From positions 1-38,228 of the forward strand of contig CANHCT010000012.1 of NCBI GenBank assembly GCA_947459175.1: a DNA stretch of 38,228 bases, in the 5' to 3' direction. The position numbers and the translations under genes are program-made. The number at the start of each line of letters is the position of its first letter. Positions within the stretch are counted from its first letter, which is position 1. This DNA is from Hymenobacteraceae bacterium (GTDB lineage Bacteria; Bacteroidota; Bacteroidia; Cytophagales; Flexibacteraceae). Below are positions 4,243-7,119 of this stretch, piece by piece. The notes under the pieces were generated by a model. The model was not told the DNA's origin, searched no databases, and saw only the letters and a list, made by a program, of their open reading frames with translations.

Positions 4243-4474
4243 GAAAGCAAAGGGGATTATCCGAATCACAGGGAAAGGAATTGTGGCAATTTCCGGAATG
4301 GAATTTCAAATGGCCCGGTAGATGAAGAATTTGGGGATGATGGGGTGAATTTCCCGATGCTGCAAAACAACACCGCTCCGGGCATCAGACCAAATGAAAA
4401 TGAGTTGGTTGCAAAGGAAAATCGCAGCCAGGTGGCTTGGATTGCTTGTTGGTGGAAGAACATGGGCTTGCCCC
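4243..4474. other. Gene-free spacer upstream of the repeat block
   Basis: With the following repeat this forms a stretch of about 570 bases between nbaC and the transposase. Small open frames on both strands (for example within 4266-4578) have no family resemblance and run into the hairpin repeats. I see no further signal here. Confidence 0.4.
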
Positions 4475-4572
4475 GACCCGCAGAGCGGGTCATATATCGG
4501 TAACCCAAAAATCCAAAGGTAGTGCCGACCCCGGAAGGAATCGTATAAAATCCCGGCCGCAGCGCCACCGCA
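4475..4572 (+). repeat. REP-like repeat, copy A (upstream of transposase)
   Basis: This ~98-bp element is repeated in the same orientation at 5311-5409, with about 80-85% identity by eye. Both start with a perfect hairpin GACCCGC-AGA-GCGGGTC. They share ATCGGTAACCCAAAAATCC, the block CCGACCCCGGAAGG, TCGTATAAAATCC and a CACCGCA end. In this copy the second hairpin (4527-4542) has decayed. The pair brackets the transposase gene. Confidence 0.8.
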
Positions 4573-4579
4573 ACCCATT

Positions 4580-4650
4580 CGACCCGCCTCCGGGGGTCGG
4601 GCCGGTTTGGAGCATCCTCTTGTTACAAATATGCCATCCCGACGGGATGG
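4580..4650. repeat. Two further hairpins between repeat A and transposase
   Basis: CGACCC (4580-4585) pairs with GGGTCG (4594-4599), echoing the GACCC stems of the flanking repeats. CCATCCC (4634-4640) pairs with GGGATGG (4644-4650) around a three-base loop, preceded by TGTTACAAATATG. From memory, short '..ACAAATAT..TCCC..GGGA..' hairpins are common intergenic repeats in Bacteroidota genomes. They may belong to the same mobile family. Confidence 0.5.
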
Positions 4651-4798
4651 AATGCAGGGTTCTGGACGATAACGAAGATAAATCTATCTTGATTTTCAAC
4701 ATCAGTTCAGCCTTCTAAAAAATACATATTGCTTACAACAAAGAAAATCTTAGAATTTCTGTCCAAATTGCCTTCTATATAAAAAACAAAATTTCGTC

Positions 4799-5260
4799 AT
4801 GCGGGATACTTTTTCACAAATTCACATCCAAATTGTTTTTGCTGTGAAAAGAAGGCAAAATTTAATTCTCCCCTCCTGGGAACAGGAATTGTACAAATAC
4901 ATCACAGGAATCATACAAAAAAAAGATCAAAAAATGTTGGCGATAAATGGCATGCCTGACCATATACACATTTTTATTGGCATGAAACCCAATTGTTGTC
5001 TATCTGATTTGGTAAGGGAGGTAAAAAAGTCATCTAATGCATTTGTGAATGAGAAAGGTTTCACCAAAACGAAATTTCAATGGCAAGAGGGTTTCGGAGC
5101 TTTTTCCTACAGTCATTCTGCATTGAGCATGGTGATCAAATACATTGAAAATCAAAAGGAACACCATAAAAAGCAATCATTCACAGACGAATACAAGGAA
5201 TTTCTAAGGAAATTTGAAATTGATTTTAAGGAGGAATTTTTATTCAATAAAGACGAATAA
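4799..5260 (+). CDS. IS200/RAYT-like Y1 transposase
   Basis: A 153-residue HUH single-strand transposase of the Y1_Tnp family. It shows the metal-binding HIH at 55-57 within NGMPDHIHIFIGM, the segment FQWQEGFGAFSYS (93-105), and the likely catalytic tyrosine Y115 in the helix IKYIENQ. The length matches full family members common in Bacteroidota, so the enzyme looks intact. There is no TnpB/IscB partner. It is framed by two ~100-bp direct repeats with hairpins (4475-4572 and 5311-5409), the arrangement of a REP-associated tyrosine transposase rather than a simple IS with hairpin ends. AT-rich sequence precedes the ATG; no ribosome site is seen. Confidence 0.9.
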   Translation: MRDTFSQIHIQIVFAVKRRQNLILPSWEQELYKYITGIIQKKDQKMLAINGMPDHIHIFIGMKPNCCLSDLVREVKKSSNAFVNEKGFTKTKFQWQEGFGAFSYSHSALSMVIKYIENQKEHHKKQSFTDEYKEFLRKFEIDFKEEFLFNKDE

Positions 5261-5310
5261 TCAGGCCCTGCCCTGACTTATTTTATTTCCAAAACTACGG
5301 AAATGAAAAT

Positions 5311-5409
5311 GACCCGCAGAGCGGGTCACAGATCGGTAACCCAAAAATCCAAACAAAATGACCGACCCCGGAAGGGGGTCGTATAAAATCCGGACACAGT
5401 GTCACCGCA
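5311..5409 (+). repeat. REP-like repeat, copy B (downstream of transposase)
   Basis: Direct partner of 4475-4572. Both hairpins are intact: GACCCGC-AGA-GCGGGTC (5311-5327) and GACCCC (5364-5369) with GGGGTC (5375-5380). It ends 45 bases from the hipA stop, so it also forms the 3' flank of the hipBA message on the other strand. Confidence 0.8.
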
Positions 5410-5454: not shown

Positions 5455-6765
5455 TCAGGATTTCAGGTTTAAAAGTGTTTTGGCTATTTCATCACGCAGC
5501 ATCGGTTTTACCTGAACCTCATCTGCAAATCTGTGCCATTGATTTACCGTATCGTTTATTTGCTCTGCAATCTCCGCTGCTTTTTTACATCGGATGGATT
5601 CCCCGATAACCAATAAATCTTTTTTGGTAATATTTTTTCTTTTCCCGTTAATGCTCAATGCATGCTGACTCACCCATTCACTTCCCGGCCTGAAGGCATG
5701 ACACATATCGTACGCAGGTGCCAGTTCCCAGGCGCCCCCCGGCTTGAGTAAAAAGGAAAAATTCTTGGTATGGTCGTCGCAATTTCGTGCAATTACATTA
5801 AAAACCATTCTTCTGAACATCTGCTCCGCATCAGCATAATTCAATCTTAACTCCCGCATGCACTGAAAGAGTTGCTCATAACTAAAACTGTTGTTCTGGT
5901 TGTAGTCAAAATGCTTTAAAGCACAGAAGGTTTGGATGTGGTACTTGTTTTCTCCTCCATCCCGGTCAAAACGCCTGGTCATAAAATGTGCCCTGCCGTT
6001 TTCTTCCAGCAAGCGGGATGGCATCATATCAATGTCGCATGCCATGGCCATGTTGCAGTAGGCCATTTCTACCCTTCCGTATCCATGACTGCTGCCCAAC
6101 TGTACATCACTCACTCCATCGAGTTTTATCAACCAATGCTCAAACCCCTTGGGTGCTTTGGTTTGCCCGGATTTTACCTCACCCGTAATTGGATTCCATG
6201 CAATGAGGGCTTTTGGCCGGGCTCCGCCTGCAGAGGTACCCATCTTTATAATATCCCATACAGCCTGCTCTTCATCTTTCTTCAGATTGGCAATGAATAC
6301 TTCCCTTTGATTCAGCATTTTTTGGGCCGTAGCCACCAGGCTGTCGATTTCAACAGAAAAGGCTCTCTTGCTTTCGTTTATCACAGCGGGCTGAAACTCC
6401 AAAGCACCCATTCCGCGGGTGCCTATGAAGCAAAGCATTTCAACCGGATTCATGCTATCCGGAGGACGACCTTGCTGCGCCAACCAAAGATTGATCAGTT
6501 GGTTTCCGTATTTGTCGGGTAATGCATCAGCCAGCAAACCGGGCAAACCTTTGAAGGTGTCGTATTCAGAGTTTTTTTCTTTTCGCAGCTCGGGGAAGGA
6601 ATACTGATTTCGGGCTTCGGAAACCGGCATTTTTAATGGAGCCAAATCCCAGCCCAGGGATTTGAATTTGGGCTCGTATTCAAAAATTGCATACCCCCTT
6701 TCTGCCTCCCAGGCTACGGCGCCTGCCAGCTTTCCCCATATATTTATTTCCGCTACCCGTACCAT
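5455..6765 (-). CDS. hipA: HipA-family serine/threonine kinase toxin
   Basis: A full-length HipA of 436 residues. In E. coli the toxin phosphorylates glutamyl-tRNA synthetase and causes growth arrest and persistence. The N-terminal subdomain spans about 1-110. The phosphate-binding loop GTSAGG (176-181) is where HipA proteins autophosphorylate on Ser. The catalytic loop is N328-C-D-D-H-T-K-N335, and the metal-binding Asp is in LAPAYDM (348-354), so the kinase looks active. The ATG follows the hipB stop with no gap (TAAATG), the usual antitoxin-then-toxin order. It is not split into HipS/HipT. The actual target in this organism is unknown. Confidence 0.93.
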   Translation of the reverse strand: MVRVAEINIWGKLAGAVAWEAERGYAIFEYEPKFKSLGWDLAPLKMPVSEARNQYSFPELRKEKNSEYDTFKGLPGLLADALPDKYGNQLINLWLAQQGRPPDSMNPVEMLCFIGTRGMGALEFQPAVINESKRAFSVEIDSLVATAQKMLNQREVFIANLKKDEEQAVWDIIKMGTSAGGARPKALIAWNPITGEVKSGQTKAPKGFEHWLIKLDGVSDVQLGSSHGYGRVEMAYCNMAMACDIDMMPSRLLEENGRAHFMTRRFDRDGGENKYHIQTFCALKHFDYNQNNSFSYEQLFQCMRELRLNYADAEQMFRRMVFNVIARNCDDHTKNFSFLLKPGGAWELAPAYDMCHAFRPGSEWVSQHALSINGKRKNITKKDLLVIGESIRCKKAAEIAEQINDTVNQWHRFADEVQVKPMLRDEIAKTLLNLKS

Positions 6766-7119
6766 TTACCAGTTTACACCTTCTTTGTTTTCTTCTTTGC
6801 CGGTTTTACTCCTTGCCCGTTGGCGTTTTTGTCTTTGCTGTTTTGCCAATGCCAGGGGACTTATCGTTTGTTTTACCTCAAAAGCATTCAGAACCGAAAG
6901 TTGATCCAATACCCTTAACACCTGTATCAGGGTGGCGAGCGTTACGGCTTCGCCCCGCTCCAGCAGGCTTAGGGTGGACCGACTGATTCCGGCTGCAGCT
7001 GCAAGCTGATCCTGGGTCTTATTTTGCTCCATTCGGTGGTGTCTGATAAATTCACCAATAAATTGGGCCAAAGCCCTGTCACTCATAGAAGGCATTGGCA
7101 TGAATGATCTATCGGTCAT
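6766..7119 (-). CDS. hipB: HipB-type helix-turn-helix antitoxin
   Basis: A 117-residue DNA-binding protein with an Xre/Cro helix-turn-helix at about 20-75 (IGEFIRHHRMEQNKTQDQLA, then GISRSTLSLLERGEAVTL). A strongly basic tail follows (KQQRQKRQRARSKTGKEENK, about 93-112). In HipBA systems HipB binds HipA and represses the operon. It is translationally joined to hipA. The upstream region (7120-7260) holds candidate operator repeats: AGTGTAtGaAT and AGTGTAaGcGAAT 20 bases apart, and GAATG..CATTC at 7193-7208. The E. coli operator pattern TATCC..GGATA is not seen. Confidence 0.9.
   Translation of the reverse strand: MTDRSFMPMPSMSDRALAQFIGEFIRHHRMEQNKTQDQLAAAAGISRSTLSLLERGEAVTLATLIQVLRVLDQLSVLNAFEVKQTISPLALAKQQRQKRQRARSKTGKEENKEGVNW

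Follow-up and report, generated by a model that had tools for sequence, protein, structure and literature searches.

The window, a stretch of 38,228 nucleotides from a Hymenobacteraceae genome (contig CANHCT010000012.1), contains a Y1 transposase gene and hairpin repeats that together represent, with a probability of about three in four, a member of a REP/REPIN-like system, partly decayed, that has an IS200-type transposase (TnpA-Y1 subclass 1.2, core clade) in place of a classical RAYT. REP elements are among the commonest repeats of bacterial genomes, and their mode of spread is still open. A REP/REPIN-like system tied to a group of IS200-type transposases for which none had been reported appears to be new, and no earlier description of one was found in the open-access literature. 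If the reading is true, REP-like modules accompany a second, IS200-like transposase lineage, and the REP lifestyle either arose more than once or predates the RAYTs. Bacteroidota would also gain a testable REP-like system with a defined motif and module.

The transposase gene is an intact open reading frame at positions 4799-5260 of the plus strand, encoding a Y1/HUH protein of 153 amino acids (Pfam Y1_Tnp, E=1.1e-26), as the preliminary description had claimed. The protein scores above the cut-off of the NCBIfam IS200 model (71.8 bits against 55) and below that of the RAYT model (30 bits against 80), and among solved structures the ISDra2 and ISHp608 transposases come closest to it. By its motifs DHIH, FQWQ, and YIENQKEHH it belongs to TnpA-Y1 subclass 1.2; the tyrosine motif reads Y-x3-Q-x2-HH instead of the Y-x3-NP of RAYTs. 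Residues H55, H57, W95, Q96, Y115, Q119, and H123 are invariant among 25 sequences compared, and 24 relatives share 55-71% identity with the window protein. Judged by its sequence, the protein is an IS200-type enzyme of the subclass 1.2 core clade. A profile search recovered three diverged genes in its own genome, and one relative holds three near-identical copies (L031-L033).

Subclass 1.2 has been described as close to the IS200 transposases, low in copy number, and found mostly in Bacteroidetes and Cyanobacteria, without REPs and without typical terminal structures (Quentin et al., 2018; PMC6006769). The window protein agrees with this description in its DH[IV]H, WQ, and Y-x3-Q-x2-HH motifs, its length of about 150 amino acids, its conserved C-terminal tail, its low copy number, and its occurrence in Bacteroidetes. 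Contrary to the published absence of REPs and terminal structures, the core clade studied here has hairpin units, which amends the description of the subclass, not the assignment of the protein, and corrects the claim that subclass 1.2 has no associated repeats.

Two direct repeats flank the gene, at 4475-4572 and 5311-5409 of the plus strand (85% identity over 100 nt, E=3.6e-25), confirming the repeats of about 98 bp first reported on either side. The downstream copy consists of an outer hairpin, GACCCGC-AGA-GCGGGTC (5311-5327), the linker motif ACAGATCGGTAACCC (5328-5342), an inner hairpin, CGACCCC-GGAAG-GGGGTCG (5363-5381), and a shared tail that runs to CACCGCA. The upstream copy opens with the same outer hairpin (4475-4491) and continues with the linker motif ATATATCGGTAACCC (4492-4506) and a decayed inner hairpin (CGACCCCGGAAGGAATCG, 4526-4543). 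Both hairpins had been ascribed to each repeat, but the second is broken upstream, so that only the 3′ copy has the pair. The two further hairpins noted between the repeats, at 4580-4599 and 4634-4650 upstream of the gene, do exist, but they are not separate features. With centres at 4483, 4535, 4590, and 4642, hairpins upstream of the gene follow one another at about 52-55 nt, and downstream the step from 5319 to 5372 is 53 nt. The additional hairpins thus belong to the same array as the direct repeats and form a single unit in the opposite orientation (4578-4652, minus strand), with its inner hairpin at 4580-4599, the linker motif GTTACAAATATG (minus strand CATATTTGTAAC) at 4622-4633, and its outer hairpin at 4634-4650.

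A covariance model of outer hairpin, linker, and inner hairpin (R1), trained on 30 units that flank these genes in other species, recovers all three window units, which were outside the training set: the opposite-orientation unit (E=6.8e-9), the downstream unit (5308-5383, plus strand, E=2e-6), and the upstream unit (4472-4545, plus strand, E=8e-4). This recovery bears on a very improbable explanation, that the window repeats are a local tandem duplication without functional tie to the gene. Stem decay in the upstream copy agrees with such a duplication, as does the finding by BLAST of only three window-type copies in the genome, a pair at the gene plus a solo copy on contig C19. The presence of a gene-less copy on another contig argues against it, however, and the held-out match and the family-wide pattern already contradict it. 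In keeping with the partly decayed system proposed, the window modules are decayed and few, a modest example of the family; folded as single-stranded DNA, the window module has no excess stability over shuffles (z=-1.0).

Among 80 relatives (proteins 55-72% identical) compared together with their flanking DNA, perfect hairpins cluster within 500 bp of the gene, with 4-5 per kb in the nearest 250 bp versus roughly 0.1-0.7 per kb beyond 1 kb. A C-rich class (arms GACCCC, AATCCC, GATGCC, and similar) reaches 2.3-3.3 per kb near the gene and is almost absent beyond 1 kb. This enrichment is partly built in because the units were first found by proximity to these genes; circularity is less of a concern for the held-out test and the genome-wide ones. 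From one hairpin to the next, the distance shows a sharp peak at 47-54 nt across dozens of loci with unrelated linkers. The triplet TAG occurs 174 times at 16-17 nt from the centre of a hairpin, versus a background of about 8 per position (consensus ATRTYTRTAGAAA), an exact DNA pattern being too strict for this motif. Within 151 linkers, it occurs at the left end only in 63, at the right end only in 59, at both ends in 1, and at neither in 28. The motif variant, ATAG or GTAG, follows the protein tree, on which it changes 10 times versus 20.7 for shuffled labels. The conserved non-hairpin block ATCGGTAACCC, regarded at first as unusual, is the window's version of this (G/A)TAG linker motif.

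Two candidate signs were set aside: the C-rich 5′ arm (227 against 6) was rejected as a mark of strand orientation, GACCCC-n-GGGGTC being identical on both strands, and stem covariation was discounted as following from the choice of perfect stems. Some loci vary the layout. In L084, L103, and L109 the hairpins are about 25-26 nt apart, roughly half the usual 50 nt, and L169, L170, L171, and L172 have a shorter module in which two outer hairpins lie about 50 nt apart with both linker motifs present and the central hairpin absent. Similar genes also occur in metagenome-assembled genomes labelled Planctomycetes, Acidobacteria, Marinimicrobia, and SAR324 (L041, L081, L082, L098), with units in at least three of these loci; either horizontal transfer or binning error may explain them.

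The arrangement of units around the gene differs between clades. Distant relatives have an inverted unit of about 70 bp on each side, in the order outer-inner-gene-inner-outer. In those closer to the window, the modules are complete (outer-inner-outer) and frequently one-sided with respect to the gene. A direct-repeat bracket like that of the window occurs in at least roughly 17 of the 80 relatives, and direct bracketing, singled out in the preliminary description as unusual, is therefore a common feature of the family. Typical solo modules are pairs of inverted units around a central hairpin, resembling REPINs. Module ends are clear in Flavobacterium only, where one genome carries the same module in both orientations with terminal inverted repeats of about 20 bp; as single-stranded DNA it folds into a cross (z=-10.7).

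Evidence of insertion comes from locus L037 of another Flavobacterium genome, where a flippase-like gene and a dUTPase gene enclose gene and module; in at least 25 of 60 relatives the two enclosing genes are direct neighbours and the insertion is missing. Upstream of the insertion, the 5′ end of the dUTPase gene recurs in decayed form (2762-2818), and the same holds at L044 for the 5′ end of the gene downstream (vsr-like, named from its sequence alone), which recurs at 2669-2823. The duplicated 5′ ends suggest insertion, or later recombination, that duplicated flanking DNA, and the direct repeats of the window can be read as a flank duplication of the same kind. L037 also contains, at about 2600-2760 (query 300-459), a distinct dispersed repeat, about 150 bp long, that has many copies across the relatives searched.

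The insertion absent from relatives' sites would also be expected of an ordinary IS200-like insertion sequence, made up of the gene and its flanking units, whose solo modules are internally deleted, MITE-like remnants moved in trans. The IS200-model score, the match to the solved ISDra2 and ISHp608 transposases, and the inverted ends of about 70 bp that closely bracket the gene in distant relatives all fit this explanation, and IS200/IS605 elements (IS608, ISDra2) share with the family hairpins at both gene ends. Yet known IS200 elements have one hairpin per end, whereas each end here has a pair spaced by 50 nt; one-sided modules are frequent in the window's clade; solo units far outnumber genes; and the genes are few per genome and mostly diverged. 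No tnpB was noticed among the reading frames next to the window gene. An ordinary insertion sequence is rather unlikely, though the least so of the rival explanations.

Dispersal beyond the gene favours the REP/REPIN-like reading. R1 units are present in all 20 gene-bearing genomes searched, with 17 matches in the window's own genome and 1-46 in the 19 others, these counts, like those of the other large searches, being lower bounds from a scored part of the candidates. Of the arrays inspected closely, most lie between genes and have no transposase gene with them. Outside the window, its own genome has three gene-less R1 units on contig C19 and four around a paralogue on C195, and the repeats are accordingly not confined to one locus, a point for which a genome-wide count had been proposed. 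Its units fall into two types, window-like and C195-like, each type lying next to a different gene, which is the pattern expected of gene-specific repeats. A search of 58 relatives with the window DNA as query found no window-type units. Solo C195-type units of the own genome (L133, L134, L135) have in their vicinity a further repeat, CTGTTTTGTCGGGCCGGCGCACTGG, arranged as tandem blocks of about 270-310 nt.

In a class-wide sample of 198 genomes, units occur in at least 93 and a gene-profile match in at least 102. Units accompany a strong protein match in 62 of 65 genomes and occur in 12 of 96 without a match, a comparison that ignores shared ancestry and in which training species may recur. 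Repeats in genomes lacking this type of Y1 gene had been named beforehand as evidence against the association; they are mostly absent from such genomes, but not from those 12, of which only two have at least five units. G146 (11 units) and G187 (5 units) have no subclass 1.2 profile match; they may have lost the gene, lack it through gaps in the sequence, or have units driven by something else.

The association is also specific. No units were found at 37 loci of other Y1 classes (30 RAYT-type, 7 IS200-type), and the remaining IS200-model set, mostly subclass 1.2 by motif, has them at 6 of 22 loci. Among strong-match control loci, about half are without a unit next to the gene. Outlying members of subclass 1.2 (C42 and C4 of the own genome, L223, L225, L227, and L232) have no units at E<=0.01. 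The units are therefore associated with the subclass 1.2 core clade and not with the whole subclass.

These distributions weigh on the improbable alternative that the arrays belong to the host and serve RNA or chromosomal functions, the Y1 gene merely favouring them or their vicinity for insertion. That the arrays are intergenic and mostly gene-less is compatible with such a role, and insertion into REPs is known for other elements, as in the account of ISPpu9 (PMC8450116). Against it stand the scarcity of units in gene-less genomes, their absence from the loci of other Y1 classes, the linker variant that tracks the protein tree, and the two unit types of the own genome, one beside each of two genes.

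Under the preferred reading of a REP/REPIN-like system, the recognised unit probably comprises the outer GC-rich hairpin, a (G/A)TAG 8-9 nt past the hairpin foot, and the inner hairpin about 50 nt off. A solo module would consist of two inverted units, the inner hairpin usually common to both, and would multiply between genes. Well-preserved modules, as single-stranded DNA, are predicted to form a cross with a terminal stem, a hairpin on each side, an apical hairpin, and pairing between the linker motifs. From the sequences compared, the protein may be expected to bind the hairpins, cut them at a defined position, and move the modules. The gene would travel with its units, as inverted units bracketing it in early-branching clades and as complete modules beside it in the window's clade. 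The window's direct repeats would then be two copies of one half-module, arising from a second insertion or a duplication beside an existing module.

The resemblance to RAYT-associated REPs and REPINs (TnpA-REP, class 2) lies in small palindromes dispersed between genes in many copies, often as inverted pairs, with one gene type per repeat type. The preliminary description had accordingly proposed a REP-associated transposase with its substrates, which stands at the family level, as a Y1 gene with a cognate repeat family, but not for the known kind of RAYT: the window protein is of class 1 and has Q instead of NP. A GT[AG]G marks the hairpin's 5′ foot in RAYT REPs, whereas (G/A)TAG lies 3′ of the hairpin here, and the regular spacing and third, central hairpin set the present modules further apart. 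A 2013 survey reported no canonical GTAG REPs in Bacteroidota (PMC3733652). The TIRtrons or TIRYTs of the same survey resemble the family in solo copies and in inverted repeats that bracket the gene in distant clades (L071, L073, L090, L107, and others), an arrangement absent at the window, where the bracket is direct. Their reported terminal inverted repeats, however, belong to RAYT-like (subclass 2.1) genes, and regular hairpin spacing and a TAG motif are absent from their description. A bolder proposal, for now tentative and somewhat doubtful, is that the family is a distinct class of single-stranded DNA transposition, in which an IS200-type enzyme would read a cross-shaped module by means of a hairpin ruler of about 50 nt, and gene-less modules would have spread in many Bacteroidota independently of RAYTs.

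In the window, the Y1 locus is adjoined by a HipBA-type toxin-antitoxin pair, consisting of a HipA-like kinase gene at 5455-7119 of the minus strand (HipA_C and Couple_hipA) and an HTH gene upstream of it.
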